This document shows positions 23,887 to 61,629 of a stretch of 64,000 nt of DNA, one piece after another (position 1 is the stretch's first letter; every line of letters begins with the position of its first letter). The position numbers and the translations under genes are program-made. The notes below the pieces were generated by a model. That model had not been told where the DNA came from. It saw only the letters and a list, made by a program, of their open reading frames with translations, and did not search any database. This stretch comes from Vicingus serpentipes. GTDB lineage: Bacteria > Bacteroidota > Bacteroidia > Flavobacteriales_E > Vicingaceae. The stretch spans positions 248,001 through 312,000 of the forward strand of contig NZ_VOOS01000002.1 in the NCBI RefSeq assembly GCF_007993035.1. The letters run 5' to 3'.

Positions 23887-23912
23887 GAATAAAGTACATA
23901 TGCACTTTATTC
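23887..23912. promoter_or_regulatory. 26-bp near-perfect palindrome upstream of the interrupted ORF
   Basis: Arms GAATAAAGT (23887-23895) and ACTTTATTC (23904-23912) are exact reverse complements and flank the hexamer CATATG; only the two bases beside the hexamer break the symmetry. There is no T-run after it, so it looks more like an operator than a terminator. It lies 28 bp before the ATG of the interrupted DUF6500-like ORF. Confidence 0.5.
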
Positions 23913-23940: not shown

Positions 23941-24159
23941 ATGAATCCAACAATAAGACAACATATCATTAATATTTGAGATGAAAAGATTGAGAAGAAA
24001 GGTGAAAATGTAGGACTTTCATTTTATGCTTTTTTCGCTAATAAAAACGATAATCCAGAGTTACTAATGGAAGTTGCAGAATGGTGGATAATAAAACATA
24101 AGCTCGACCATTTTGAAAAAGCAATTAAGATTAAAGAAATGATACAAAATAAGTTTTAA
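23941..24159 (+). pseudogene. DUF6500-like small ORF interrupted by an in-frame TGA at codon 13
   Basis: The frame from ATG 23941 reads MNPTIRQHIINI, then TGA (23977-23979), then DEKIEKKGENVGLSFYAFFA and on through NKNDNPELLMEVAEWWIIKH to a TAA at 24157-24159. The downstream part is protein-like, with a Trp pair and charged helix, and resembles what I recall of the ~70-residue DUF6500 family (memory, not a search). No ATG, GTG or TTG follows the TGA early enough to restore the protein. TGG is read as Trp in neighbouring genes, so code reassignment is unlikely. It may be a decayed gene, a base error, or a recoded stop. The remaining 420-bp gap around it holds the palindrome listed separately. 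Confidence 0.6.
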
Positions 24160-24201: not shown

Positions 24202-24546
24202 ATGAAAATTGAATCATTTATTAAAAATTTAGATTTTAACGACAATAAAATTGTGACCAAAGTAATTTTAGAAACATCATTTTCTAAAGAAATAAGAATA
24301 CTGTTAAAGAAGGGTCAAATTATGAAAGAGCATAAGGCTCCTTTCCCTATTATTGTTAATATTTTAGAAGGAGAAATTAATTTTGGAGTTGAAGAAAAAA
24401 CACATCAATTAAATAAAGGCGACATTATTACTTTAGAAGGTCATGTTCCTCACGATTTAACTGCCCTAAAAGATAGTATAGTCCGTTTAACACTTTCAAA
24501 ACTAGATCATCCAGAAAGAGTTGAAAAAGTGATTACAAATTCATAA
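24202..24546 (+). CDS. small cupin-domain protein
   Basis: 114 residues forming a single cupin barrel. Motif 1 is spread over KKGQIMKEHKAPFPIIVNIL with EGEINFGVEEKTHQLNKGDI, and motif 2 has GHVPHDLTALKDSIVRLTL. Only some of the usual metal-binding His and Glu residues are present (EHKAP and HVPHDL), so metal binding is uncertain. It lies 42 bp after the interrupted DUF6500-like ORF on the same strand. The ligand is unknown. Low-complexity bases are absent and codon use matches its neighbours. Confidence 0.8.
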   Translation: MKIESFIKNLDFNDNKIVTKVILETSFSKEIRILLKKGQIMKEHKAPFPIIVNILEGEINFGVEEKTHQLNKGDIITLEGHVPHDLTALKDSIVRLTLSKLDHPERVEKVITNS

Positions 24547-24603: not shown

Positions 24604-25800
24604 CTAACCAACTGTAGCCATACATCTTTTAATCGATTGGTAAGTACGTTCCGGGTTATTATCTAACCCTATAGATATACGAACTAAACCATCGGTTAAG
24701 CCCATTTCTAGTCTTTCTTCTTCTGGTATTTCTGAAGAAGTACTTCCGCCTGGTGCACTAAACAATGTTTTATATGAACCTAAGCTTACAGCTAAATAAC
24801 CTAAGTTGTCATCTTGCATCAATTCCATTAATTGATTTGCTCTTGCTGGAGTTTGCATATCAATTACAAACAAACCTCCAAAACCAAAATCTTCATTCAT
24901 CATTGTTTTCATCAATCCATTTTGTGGATGACTTGCTAAACCTGGATAAGTAACTTTAACACCATCTTCATGTAGTTTAGATGAAATGTACATTGCGTTA
25001 GCACTATGTTGTTTCATTCTAATATGAAGTGTTCTTAAATTCTTTAAAATACTTGCCGATCTAAAACTATCTAAAACTGGTCCTAACAGCATTGCAGCTC
25101 CATCGTTTACATCATATAACGAATTAATAAATTCTTCTGAAGCACATACTGTTCCTGCTACACAATCACTCATTCCATTAATAAATTTAGTCATCGAATG
25201 AACAACAATATCAGCTCCCATTTGGGCTGGAGAAAAAATCATTGGAGAGAAAGTATTGTCAACAACCAATTTACAATCGTTTGCTTTTGCAATTTTAGAC
25301 AGTTCCGAAACATCAGAAATCTCTAACATCGGATTACTCATTGTTTCACAGTAAATAATTTTAGTTTTATCTGTTACAGCTGCTTTTACTTGTTCTAATT
25401 CAGTAGTATTTACAAAATTTACTTTAATACCAAATTTTGGTAAAAAGTTTTTGAAAAAAGCATATGTACCACCATAAATGGTTCTACTTGCTACAATTTC
25501 ATCACCAGATAAACAGATTTGTAAGATTACTGAAGTAATTGCTCCCATTCCTGAAGCGGTTACTGAAGCACTTTCTGTACCTTCCATTTGAGCAAGAGCT
25601 TGCGACAAATATTTATTACTTGGATTCCAGTGCCTCGAATATAAATAGCAACCTTCTACTTCTCCACCAAAAACACCTTCCATTGTTCCTGCCTTTAAAA
25701 AAGTATAGGTGGAAGAATCTGTTATTGAAGGGTTTACACCTCCAAATTCACCAAAATATTGTAAATCTTGAATATTGTCTGCTGGTCTAAAATCTTTCAT
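24604..25800 (-). CDS. Cys/Met-metabolism PLP-dependent enzyme (trans-sulfuration / methionine gamma-lyase-like)
   Basis: 398 residues, fold type I. Visible boxes: EGTESASVTASGMGAITSVI, ASRTIYGGTYAFFKNFLPK, IIYCETMSNPMLEISDVSEL, VVDNTFSPMIFSPAQMGADI and VVHSMTKFINGMSDCVAGT, where the Lys of SMTKF would hold the cofactor. The C-terminus GLVRISIGLDN is typical. Cystathionine lyase, synthase and methionine gamma-lyase activities cannot be separated by eye; the N-terminal DLQYFGEFGGVNPSI start is that of the Flavobacteriales group usually named methionine gamma-lyase-like. It is monocistronic and convergent with the cupin gene. Confidence 0.88.
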   Translation of the reverse strand: MKDFRPADNIQDLQYFGEFGGVNPSITDSSTYTFLKAGTMEGVFGGEVEGCYLYSRHWNPSNKYLSQALAQMEGTESASVTASGMGAITSVILQICLSGDEIVASRTIYGGTYAFFKNFLPKFGIKVNFVNTTELEQVKAAVTDKTKIIYCETMSNPMLEISDVSELSKIAKANDCKLVVDNTFSPMIFSPAQMGADIVVHSMTKFINGMSDCVAGTVCASEEFINSLYDVNDGAAMLLGPVLDSFRSASILKNLRTLHIRMKQHSANAMYISSKLHEDGVKVTYPGLASHPQNGLMKTMMNEDFGFGGLFVIDMQTPARANQLMELMQDDNLGYLAVSLGSYKTLFSAPGGSTSSEIPEEERLEMGLTDGLVRISIGLDNNPERTYQSIKRCMATVG

Positions 25801-44242: not shown

Positions 44243-44501
44243 TTTTAATTGATTTTATATTTTTTACTACTATTTTTTCAACTAAATCTATTAGTCAAAG
44301 TATATGCCATTAAAAAATATATGTCATTTTGACTTAAGACAATCATTAATTCACATTAAATACTGACAAAAACAACTATTCTATTGTTAAATTTAAATTG
44401 AAAAAAAAACATCGTATTGATTTTATAACTTTTTTCAATAATCTAGAAAAATTCACCTAAAATAATATTATCTTAGAGCTGTTCATCTTAAAACCAAACC
44501 A

Positions 44502-45101
44502 TTGAACCGATTATTTTTAGTGCTTGTTAGTTCTATTTTTATCAATAAAATTGATGCTCAAATAACTGCATCATATATCAATAATCGCGTTGAATTATCA
44601 TGGACCCATTCCGACATTAAAAATGTCAGTTTTTATGTTATTGAAAAATCAAAAAATGGGAAATATTTTAAACCCTTTTTAAAAATAGAAACCACTAATA
44701 AATCATATTCTTCATTTATTGAAGTTGATAATTCACCATACAAACATCAAACTTATTATAGGTTAAGGTACATAAACAATAATGGAAATTATTATTATAG
44801 TGAAACGATATCAATAAGAGAAAATGCTACCAAAAAACTTCCGCCAACCTTAATTAATTATAACAAATTAAATGTTTTAGTTATTCTAAAAAATAACAAT
44901 GGAATTGAAACTTACGCAAAGCTTAATATAAAAGAAAAAAACAATGAGTTAGTTTCTGAAACACTAAACAGTAAAATAAGATCAGGAAATTACTTTATTA
45001 CTGCATCTGAAGATGACTCTCTTTTAGGTTATAAGATAAAAATAATAAATCCTGATCAAGCAGAAACTAAATACCTCTCCGATACTCTGAACATAGAATA
45101 G
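44502..45101 (+). CDS. secreted protein of unknown function with fibronectin-III-like start
   Basis: 199 residues from a TTG at 44502; a signal sequence follows (LFLVLVSSIFINKIDAQ), which fixes the start. Residues 20-100 (ASYINNRVELSWTHSDIKNV, SFYVIEKSKNGKYFKPFLKI, TYYRLRYINNNGNYYYSETI) have the shape of the fibronectin type III-like modules seen in Bacteroidota secreted proteins. The remaining 90 residues are unassigned. No T9SS sorting tail is visible. Its last 35 bp overlap the end of the convergent SpoU gene. Confidence 0.7.
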   Translation: MNRLFLVLVSSIFINKIDAQITASYINNRVELSWTHSDIKNVSFYVIEKSKNGKYFKPFLKIETTNKSYSSFIEVDNSPYKHQTYYRLRYINNNGNYYYSETISIRENATKKLPPTLINYNKLNVLVILKNNNGIETYAKLNIKEKNNELVSETLNSKIRSGNYFITASEDDSLLGYKIKIINPDQAETKYLSDTLNIE

Positions 45102-47930: not shown

Positions 47931-47973
47931 TCTGTTCCAATTAATAATAGTTATTTTGTATTTATTAGTATTG

Positions 47974-48003
47974 CAAACATAAGCAATTATACAAATATTC
48001 AAA
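47974..48003 (-). promoter_or_regulatory. promoter of the PorE-like gene
   Basis: Minus-strand -33 TTTG (48000-48003) and -7 TATGTTTG (47974-47981) with an 18-nt spacer, in the short divergent region shared with tamL. Start site predicted near 47968, about 40 bp from the ATG. Confidence 0.55.
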
Positions 48004-48010
48004 TATAATA

Positions 48011-50305
48011 TTGAAACCTAATTATTTAAGCATATTAACCTCTTTTTTCATTAGCATTTTTTGCGTTTTTACCTTTTTCAGTTGTAACCCAACAAAAACT
48101 TTAAAACCTGATGAAATATTCTTACAAAAAGTTAAAATTAAAACTGACAACAAAAAGATTGATAAAGATGAATTGTATCGAATTAACAAACAAAAAACTA
48201 ACAAAAAAATCCTTGGAATTTTTAGATTCCATTTAGGAGCTTACAATCTTTTTTACAAAAGAGTTGATAACTTCAAAGAGAATATAGGTGAACCTCCTTC
48301 ACTTTACGATTCAACATTAACTGAAAATAGCGCTAATCAAATTGGACTTTACCTAAAAAATAGAGGTTACTTTCACAATAAAATTACATATTCTACTAAG
48401 CTTAGAAAAAACAAAGTGAAACTATTTTTTGATGTTTCGACAGGAGTGCCATACACCATAAACGAATTAACTTATAATTTTCAAGACCCTTCACTAGGAG
48501 GCTATATCCTTTATAAAAAAAATAATAGCTTAGTAAAGCCAGGAATTAACTTTGACGTAGATATCCTTGACAAAGAAAGAGAACGTATAAAAAAAATATT
48601 GAAAGAAAGAGGTTACTATTATTTTTCTAACAACTTCATAAAATATAAGGTTGACAGTACAACAGGAAACAATCAAGTTAATCTTGAATTGCAAATATTA
48701 AATAATAAAACAAAAGATCCTAGCTCTGAAAATAGCTACAATGAAACTAATCATAAAAAATACGCTATCAATAATATTAATGTTTTTATCAGTAAAAATA
48801 TTAGAAATCAAGGCCTTAATAATTTTGATACAATTTCATATAATGATATAGTACTTCACTATACTAATAAACTAAAGTTTAAACCTAAAATGATTCGTCA
48901 TTCAATAGATTTTAAACCAAGAGACACCTATTCTTTATCAGACCAAAATTCAACTTATAAACACCTATCTGAACTAAGATTATTTAAAAATATATCTCTA
49001 CAATATGACGAAATAGATTCTAATCGATTAAACAGTAACATCTTTTTAACACCTTTAGCCAGTAAATCTTTTGCAATTGAAGGAATTGGAACAAATACTG
49101 GTGGTGATTTAGGGGTTGAAGGAAATGTTATATATCAGAATAAAAATCTTTTTAGAGGTGGGGAAAGACTTACCCTAAAACTAAAAGGAGGAATTGAAAT
49201 TCAAAGGCTTGTAAGTGTTTCTACAAATGAAAACGAAATTTTTGGTTCTCCTTTTAACACCTTAGAATTTGGTCCTGAAGCTACATTAGAATTCCCAAGA
49301 TTTCTTCTCCCCTTTAACTTAGAGAAGTTCTCAAAAAGAGCAAACCCAAAAACAACTATTTCAAGCACACTAAACTTTCAGCAACGACCTGAATATTCAA
49401 GAAGTTTAGCTCAATTTTCATTTGGTTATTTTTGGAATGAAACCATATTCAAAAAACATTTTGTAACTCCATTAAACGTAAGTTATATTAAACTTAACCT
49501 TACTCCAGAATTTCAAACAAAAATTGATGCTGAGAATAATCCATTCCTAAAAAACAGTTATACCGACCATTTCATTAGTGCTATTCAGTATAGTTTTATT
49601 TTGAATAATCAAGAAATCAACAAACTAAAAGATTTCTCTTACTTCAGATTTAATTTCGAAACTGCAGGAAATCTTTTAAGTTCAATTAATCGAATATCTA
49701 ATACTCCTGCAAATGAATCAACAGGTGCATATGATTTTCTGGGGATTAGATATGCAGAATACTTTAAAACTGAATTCGATTTTCGTCATTATTTAAATAA
49801 AAAATACAGTTCATTTGTTCAAAGAATTGCTTTAGGAGTTGGAAAACCTTATGGCAATTTAGATGTTTTACCTTTCGAAAAAAGTTTCTTTGCTGGAGGT
49901 TCTAATGGGATAAGAGCATGGCAAGCAAGAACATTAGGGCCTGGTTCACTTCCCGACTCGCTTACTTCAACAGTTAATCAAATAGGAGAATTAAAAATAG
50001 AAGCAAACATTGAATATAGATTCGATATAACAAAAATATTTGAAGGTGCCTTTTTTATTGATGCTGGTAATATATGGATATTAAAAAAAGATAGTCAACG
50101 ACCAAATGCTGAAATAAATTTAAGTAGGTTTTATCAAGATTTAGCAATTGGCTTTGGAACAGGATTAAGACTAGATTTTAATTTTTTTATTATACGATTT
50201 GACCTTGCAACACCTTTAAAAGACCCTTCTTCTGATAATCCTAAAAAATATGAAGTATTGATAAAAAATACTACTCTAAATTTAGGAATTGGATATCCTT
50301 TCTAG
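48011..50305 (+). CDS. tamL: TamL-type outer-membrane lipoprotein (BamA/TamA superfamily)
   Basis: 764 residues. It starts at TTG 48011, which puts a lipoprotein signal (YLSILTSFFISIFCVFTFFS then Cys25) at the N-terminus. The next part (NPTKTLKPDEIFLQKVKIKT) is typical of TamL of Bacteroidota. POTRA-like region ~30-330, then a C-terminal 16-strand barrel of the Omp85 type: GERLTLKLKGGIEIQRLVSV, FFAGGSNGIRAWQARTLGPG (the conserved G-x-RG-like loop as NGIRAW) and RLDFNFFIIRFDLATPLKDP. It helps insert outer-membrane proteins together with TamB. Divergent from the PorE-like gene. Confidence 0.93.
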   Translation: MKPNYLSILTSFFISIFCVFTFFSCNPTKTLKPDEIFLQKVKIKTDNKKIDKDELYRINKQKTNKKILGIFRFHLGAYNLFYKRVDNFKENIGEPPSLYDSTLTENSANQIGLYLKNRGYFHNKITYSTKLRKNKVKLFFDVSTGVPYTINELTYNFQDPSLGGYILYKKNNSLVKPGINFDVDILDKERERIKKILKERGYYYFSNNFIKYKVDSTTGNNQVNLELQILNNKTKDPSSENSYNETNHKKYAINNINVFISKNIRNQGLNNFDTISYNDIVLHYTNKLKFKPKMIRHSIDFKPRDTYSLSDQNSTYKHLSELRLFKNISLQYDEIDSNRLNSNIFLTPLASKSFAIEGIGTNTGGDLGVEGNVIYQNKNLFRGGERLTLKLKGGIEIQRLVSVSTNENEIFGSPFNTLEFGPEATLEFPRFLLPFNLEKFSKRANPKTTISSTLNFQQRPEYSRSLAQFSFGYFWNETIFKKHFVTPLNVSYIKLNLTPEFQTKIDAENNPFLKNSYTDHFISAIQYSFILNNQEINKLKDFSYFRFNFETAGNLLSSINRISNTPANESTGAYDFLGIRYAEYFKTEFDFRHYLNKKYSSFVQRIALGVGKPYGNLDVLPFEKSFFAGGSNGIRAWQARTLGPGSLPDSLTSTVNQIGELKIEANIEYRFDITKIFEGAFFIDAGNIWILKKDSQRPNAEINLSRFYQDLAIGFGTGLRLDFNFFIIRFDLATPLKDPSSDNPKKYEVLIKNTTLNLGIGYPF

Positions 50306-60803: not shown

Positions 60804-60805
60804 TT

Positions 60806-61627
60806 TTATTTAATGTTTATTATTTCTAAATTATATATTACAGTACTGTATGGAGGTACAATTCCTGTACTAGAACCTTTATCTCCAAAAGCGAATTGCG
60901 AAGGTATGATAATTTTTGCTTTTTCTCCATTTTTAAGAACTTTTAACACCCTATCTAGTCCTTCTATGACTTGATTTGGTGTGCCATAGACCAGTTCAAA
61001 AGGTTCTTTACTGAAAGTTGTATCAAAGACAACACCAGAGATAAAGCCTCCTGTATATCGAATATCTATAATATCAGCATTTTTGATAGTATTATTTGAG
61101 GTCTCTTTCAATTTAACATAGTAGATATTGTCTACTTTTTCAATTTTGTCTTCAGTACTTAAATAGCTTTTTAAAATTAATTGCTCCAATAACTCGTTGT
61201 CTTTTTGTTTTAAAAAATTATCGTATTCCTTTTCGTTTAAGAAGTCTTCAATTTTTACATTTATTTTAACCCAATCAGCATTAAACTCTTTCGAAGAAAA
61301 CCCAAAACTATTATCATCAAAAATTAATTTTGAAACCAATAATTCAGCACTATCTCCTACATTTAATAGCGTGAAAATATTATCGAAACTTTTAGTCGTT
61401 GGTAAAAAAGGAATGTATTTATAATTAAGGTATTTAACTGTATCTTCATCATAAACAAAGAATGTTGCTTTAATAAAATCACCTTTTTGATAAGTCTTAA
61501 CATTGTCTTCAAAAGAATACAGTTTTAAATGAACACCATCATTAATCAAGTTATAGCCATCAATTTTACTTTCTTTACAAGAATTAATTAAAAATAAAAT
61601 GCATAATATTAAAGTTGTTTTTTTCAA
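60806..61627 (-). CDS. FKBP-domain lipoprotein (divergent)
   Basis: 273 residues from a TTG at 61627. The signal KKTTLILCILFLINSCKESK carries the lipobox with Cys17. The C-terminal part from ~190 is FKBP: DIIDIRYTGGFISGVVFDTT, QVIEGLDRVLKVLKNGEKAK and IIIPSQFAFGDKGSSTGIVP. Residues 40-140 look like a second, degenerate FKBP-like unit (YQKGDFIKATFFVYDEDTVK) without the pocket residues. Two bases from its neighbours on each side, so it is part of a tight operon. Confidence 0.85.
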   Translation of the reverse strand: MKKTTLILCILFLINSCKESKIDGYNLINDGVHLKLYSFEDNVKTYQKGDFIKATFFVYDEDTVKYLNYKYIPFLPTTKSFDNIFTLLNVGDSAELLVSKLIFDDNSFGFSSKEFNADWVKINVKIEDFLNEKEYDNFLKQKDNELLEQLILKSYLSTEDKIEKVDNIYYVKLKETSNNTIKNADIIDIRYTGGFISGVVFDTTFSKEPFELVYGTPNQVIEGLDRVLKVLKNGEKAKIIIPSQFAFGDKGSSTGIVPPYSTVIYNLEIINIK

Positions 61628-61629
61628 TT

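Follow-up and report, generated by a model that had tools for sequence, protein, structure and literature searches.

An in-frame TGA at the invariant cysteine of a mobile DUF6500 gene in Vicingus serpentipes probably marks a recent nonsense change

The bSECIS model of bacterial selenoprotein genes, as quoted in PMC13188914, calls for an apical loop of 3-9 nt, an upper stem of 4-16 bp, a G in the first two loop positions at 16-37 nt from the UGA, and a minimum free energy (MFE) of -7.5 kcal/mol or lower. In a passage of PMC1088965, a cluster in which TGA is paired with Cys but which is represented by a single sequence is treated as a candidate only, given that sequencing error is possible. The main text of PMC13188914 does not mention PF20110, the Pfam family of DUF6500 proteins, and a literature search with the word DUF6500 found no paper. 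Here we describe a DUF6500 gene that carries a TGA at a conserved cysteine position. The gene lies in a 64,000-nucleotide stretch of V. serpentipes DNA, the whole of which is referred to as the window. The draft genome assembly from which it is drawn comprises 2,918,678 bases in 34 contigs and is 99.89% complete.

The first-pass annotation of the window recognized a small DUF6500-like ORF with a single in-frame TGA at codon 13, and both the reading of the frame and a strong Pfam match downstream of the TGA (E 1.4e-33; 115 bits against a gathering cut-off of 23.7) confirm this description. The profile match spans residues 16-68, and the cysteine position lies outside the profile. The concern that relatives might lack the residues preceding the TGA proved unfounded; homologues possess the same Met start and keep these residues, which places the TGA inside the gene. 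Four of the 53 window ORFs of at least 150 aa with an ATG start end in TGA (TAA 41, TAG 8), so TGA acts as an ordinary stop here. Reassignment of TGA is ruled out by this usage and by the lack of a UCA anticodon among the 34 tRNAs found. The same conclusion had been drawn earlier from neighboring genes said to end in TGA; the conclusion stands, but the flanking pckA and cupin genes both end in TAA. Translation restart is likewise ruled out, with no in-frame ATG, GTG or TTG between the TGA and codon 43, the first such codon after it. Ribosomes that initiate at 23941 would release a 12-residue peptide at the UGA, and given the absence of a usual in-frame start before codon 43, the gene would not be expected to yield a DUF6500 protein of useful length.

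Table 1. Positions of the DUF6500 frame, its internal TGA and neighboring features in the window.
Feature	Position	Strand	Basis and remarks
DUF6500 reading frame, 72 codons + TAA, broken by one TGA	23941..24159	+	translation and Pfam match
In-frame TGA, codon 13, at the invariant cysteine position	23977..23979	+	frame reading and homologue alignment
Interrupted 16-bp RNA stem with 14-nt apical loop	23983..24034	+	fold; interpreted as by-product of coding sequence, not SECIS
pckA, left flanking gene, intact, ends TAA	22149..23783	+	putative name
Small cupin-domain gene downstream of DUF6500	24202..24546	+	domain match
PLP-enzyme gene, right flank, convergent	24604..25800	-	putative name

A near-perfect inverted repeat, GAATAAAGT...ACTTTATTC, occupies window positions 23887-23912 just upstream of the DUF6500 start (-8.1 kcal/mol, z -1.5). 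Elsewhere in the window, long stretches at 44243-45066, 47931-48889 and 60804-61629 contain no ATG-started ORF of at least 100 aa. A structural model of the read-through protein has a mean pLDDT of 90.4 and four helices of at least four residues. Searching the PDB with this model returned no match at E <= 0.001, the best hits being Rex repressors with E values of 0.7 upward, and a PDB sequence search gave three chance-level matches (E 0.55-0.63). On the strength of this model, the DUF6500 fold may be one without a solved close relative.

The residue found at codon 13 in relatives is uniform. All 116 readable homologue rows encode Cys (TGT 68, TGC 48), as do all 85 other loci of the first homologue set and each of the 109 intact homologues, which comprise 108 different DNA sequences. 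The 116-row set combines the first loci with phylum, gammaproteobacterial, plasmid, phage and viral copies; some loci are repeated within it (L168 = L011, L105 = L085, L109 = L020), and 113 remain once these are removed. L176 was left out for its low score and L107, L155, L156 and L157 because position 13 is not aligned; in L157 the Cys is still visible in the other frame. The relatives were searched with six peptide patterns, one with Cys replacing the stop. Of at least 571 relatives in the contig search the 80 top-ranking were kept, such that the homologue set represents the best-scoring part of a larger family. Within these bounds (116 readable rows, 80 top-ranking of at least 571 relatives), codon 13 was TGA in no other copy. 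The Cys13 feature, derived here and not part of Pfam's definition, is replaced by TGA in the window copy. The first-pass annotation had suggested that selenocysteine would merit a test if homologues carry Cys opposite the TGA, and since every readable homologue does, a pattern regarded as the hallmark of selenocysteine/cysteine homologue pairs, that test was warranted. Apart from the TGA, His8 is the only one among the first 68 residues that is common to two or fewer of the 109 homologues; none of the intact copies has it and 100 of 109 have Lys. His8 may hint at relaxed constraint.

Genes for selenocysteine (Sec) biosynthesis and insertion were then sought in the V. serpentipes genome. No match to selA was found. 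The eight selB matches all fall under the cut-off, and the best, the one among them that was classified with NCBIfam, is EF-Tu; the sole selD match, also under the cut-off, is ThiL. None of six tRNA-Sec matches exceeds the cut-off, and ARAGORN identifies them as Ser, Leu, Tyr, Ser, Phe and Cys tRNAs. No UCA anticodon occurs among the 34 tRNAs found in the genome, in a search that scored 150 of 293 candidates and in which the loci not scanned singly overlap scanned ones. The selA search gave matches in 4 of 14 control genomes, over the cut-off in one, and no match over the cut-off in 46 family genomes (six weak matches below it). By contrast with a genome equipped for selenoproteins, in which selA, selB, selD and tRNA-Sec are expected together, none of the four was detected here, and the recoding proposal accordingly fell to the very check that the first-pass annotation had attached to it. 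Among 24 DUF6500-bearing genomes tested, four have selA over the cut-off (those of L011, L015, L021 and L076), and codon 13 of DUF6500 is Cys TGT in each of them, so that in the cases seen cysteine is retained even by Sec users.

The 5-bp stem GAAAG/CTTTC, previously noted as weak, is present at 23997-24001 and 24016-24020. Folding of the 59 nt from the TGA gives an MFE of -11.3 kcal/mol (z -2.14; matched by 4 of 200 shuffles), and other fold lengths from the TGA yield z -0.33 (44 nt) and z -0.17 (120 nt). Only 16 of 1000 draws from a synonymous-codon null attain -11.3 kcal/mol, evidence of some structure in the stem region over and above that expected by chance. The upper stem measures 5 bp, the loop starts with G then U, and the distance to the UGA is 22 nt; three of the four bSECIS constraints quoted in PMC13188914 agree with this stem. 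The apical loop does not, at 14 nt in the minimum-energy fold against the 3-9 nt allowed there. Moreover, an equal or lower energy is reached by 41 of 116 Cys homologues, and by 22 of 92 when only those of GC <40% are counted; the stem therefore comes with the coding sequence.

Examination of the distribution of DUF6500 reveals a patchy pattern. The gene was found in none of three other same-genus genomes, in 6 of 46 family genomes including V. serpentipes itself (5 of 45 others), and in 8 of 395 genomes sampled across the phylum, again including this one. Within the class to which the Photobacterium genome belongs, 9 of 369 sampled genomes gave a match, a weak one in a single case. DUF6500 also occurs on 80 of 72,556 plasmid records (43 of the 80 are classed as conjugative), on 2 of 50,697 phage records, and at seven viral-contig loci. 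In the window, DUF6500 and the cupin gene lie between what we take to be phosphoenolpyruvate carboxykinase (pckA) and, presumably, a cystathionine/methionine gamma-lyase-like enzyme. In G003, a genome of the same genus, 59 bp separate the end of the pckA match from that of the convergent PLP-enzyme match, versus about 820 bp in the window, and neither cupin nor DUF6500 was found between them; in G001 and G002, also of the genus, other genes come after pckA. The cupin gene does not accompany DUF6500 at the other loci examined, and no flanking DNA is shared with homologous loci beyond matches of 15-19 bases. DUF6500 is thus an accessory gene: a same-genus genome lacks the stretch that holds it, and its occurrence in family and phylum is patchy.

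The neighbors of DUF6500 elsewhere include an aldehyde dehydrogenase gene upstream (L001 466-1920) and a short-chain dehydrogenase gene downstream (L006 2222-2998), both at Flavobacteriaceae-like loci; ORFs of comparable size occupy the same places at L006 (upstream), L014 and L022. At L002 (1582-1929), L157, L159 and L183, DUF6500 neighbors PemK-like, RelE/ParE and YafQ toxin-antitoxin, DinB and GNAT genes, which fits a location in mobile accessory regions.

DUF6500 is also broken elsewhere. Excluding V. serpentipes, 4 of 13 places from the family and phylum searches carry disrupted copies, namely G041 (TAG, TAA), a second copy in G024, G292 (TAG, TAA) and G203 (frameshift), and the 10 places from the Photobacterium-class search have no internal stops. 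Damage is also seen among the plasmid and phage copies retrieved, with a frameshift in L157, three stops in L178 and a single stop in L184. No other broken copy with a readable codon 13 is interrupted there. The L178 copy (301-504) is unannotated and resides on an E. coli IncC plasmid; about 30 listed enterobacterial plasmid matches have an identical value of 60.3% identity and may be the same decayed copy.

Comparison of the window frame with 11 relatives gives dN/dS values of 0.046-0.105 in the seven cases with estimable dS, where dS is 1.2-2.1 and near saturation; in the other four dS is not estimable. These low ratios indicate that purifying selection acted on the frame over most of its past and say little about the time since the stop. 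Together with the lack of any other disabling change they give no sign of long decay, and the conservation of the remaining frame implies that the stop is either recent or a base error. Counting single-base routes from the present codons under equal rates, 6 routes to TGA and 26 to TAA or TAG lie outside codon 13 and one more lies at a Cys codon there, which puts the chance of hitting the Cys codon at 1 in 33 of all stop routes and 1 in 7 of TGA routes.

Since recoding failed the machinery test, the pseudogene and the base error survive from the three options of the first-pass annotation, and recoding is left unsupported with no Sec machinery detected. Of these, we consider it probable that a horizontally spread accessory DUF6500 gene has recently been inactivated by one nonsense change at the invariant cysteine. 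The frame carries a disabling change for which no decoding route was found, the gene is patchily distributed, and other copies are broken at the frequency given above. Against this reading, the stop falls exactly on the sole invariant cysteine; no other disabling change is present, and the low dN/dS would also fit a base error in an intact gene. The 1-in-33 chance deserved a test, yet a coincidence of this size is too modest to override the missing Sec machinery. A nonsense mutation that hit the cysteine by chance is therefore the most likely account, with sequencing error ranked below it, and we infer that the TGA base is real, the change recent and special decoding no rescue.

That the TGA is instead a sequencing or assembly error in an intact, working DUF6500 gene is the less likely of the two leading readings: the TGA is the single disabling feature of an otherwise conserved frame with low dN/dS, and the genome is a 34-contig draft. 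No direct sign of such an error was seen. A window scan for single stops within coding-like frames outside long ORFs gave only two weak candidates, so the window does not look error-rich, but the scan missed the codon-13 TGA itself and is thus insensitive.

Readthrough of the UGA at a useful level by a near-cognate Trp or Cys tRNA, yielding some full-length protein, appears improbable. Basal UGA readthrough occurs in bacteria, and the remainder of the frame is conserved; however, the low dN/dS covers the long time before the stop arose in addition to any after it. No suppressor tRNA was seen in the genome, which offers only Trp-CCA and Cys-GCA tRNAs for near-cognate reading of UGA, and Trp would replace the invariant cysteine. 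We regard as still more doubtful a Sec codon stranded by horizontal transfer, without its machinery, from an unsampled Sec-decoding donor, or, bolder, insertion of an amino acid at this UGA in the present lineage by a route unlike the known one; were the former so, DUF6500 would constitute a new selenoprotein family with Cys13 as a redox or metal-binding residue. Finally, despite the TGA opposite Cys in every readable row and a well-placed stem that few synonymous recodings match, decoding of this UGA as selenocysteine in the present cell is the least credible reading, given a nearly complete genome without detected machinery, no selA over the cut-off in 46 family genomes, an overlong loop (PMC13188914), a fold equaled by many Cys homologues and unexceptional over 120 nt, plain Cys in four selA-bearing genomes, and no second TGA form in the rows sampled.

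The probable nonsense change at this locus carries two implications. First, it is a cautionary case: a TGA opposite a conserved cysteine and followed by a stem can get through most of a selenoprotein screen and yet belong to a genome in which Sec machinery is not detectable. Second, the invariant cysteine and invariant core of this widely mobile family of unknown function provide a concrete residue to test.

Compared with known systems, the window copy resembles the DUF6500 family in its profile score, its shared start and its 85% identity to a copy from a Lutibacter MAG, and differs from it in the stop at Cys13 and in His8 where most intact homologues have Lys. With bacterial selenoproteins of the bSECIS type it shares a TGA opposite an invariant Cys and a downstream stem with G at the loop start; it departs from them in its genome without detected Sec machinery, in a loop too long for the model quoted in PMC13188914, in a stem common to Cys homologues, and in the lack of a second TGA member among those seen. 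With recent nonsense pseudogenes it has in common a patchily distributed gene whose frame is intact but for one stop and whose other family copies include broken ones, and from these it is set apart by a stop that falls on the invariant cysteine, where the other readable broken copies have none.
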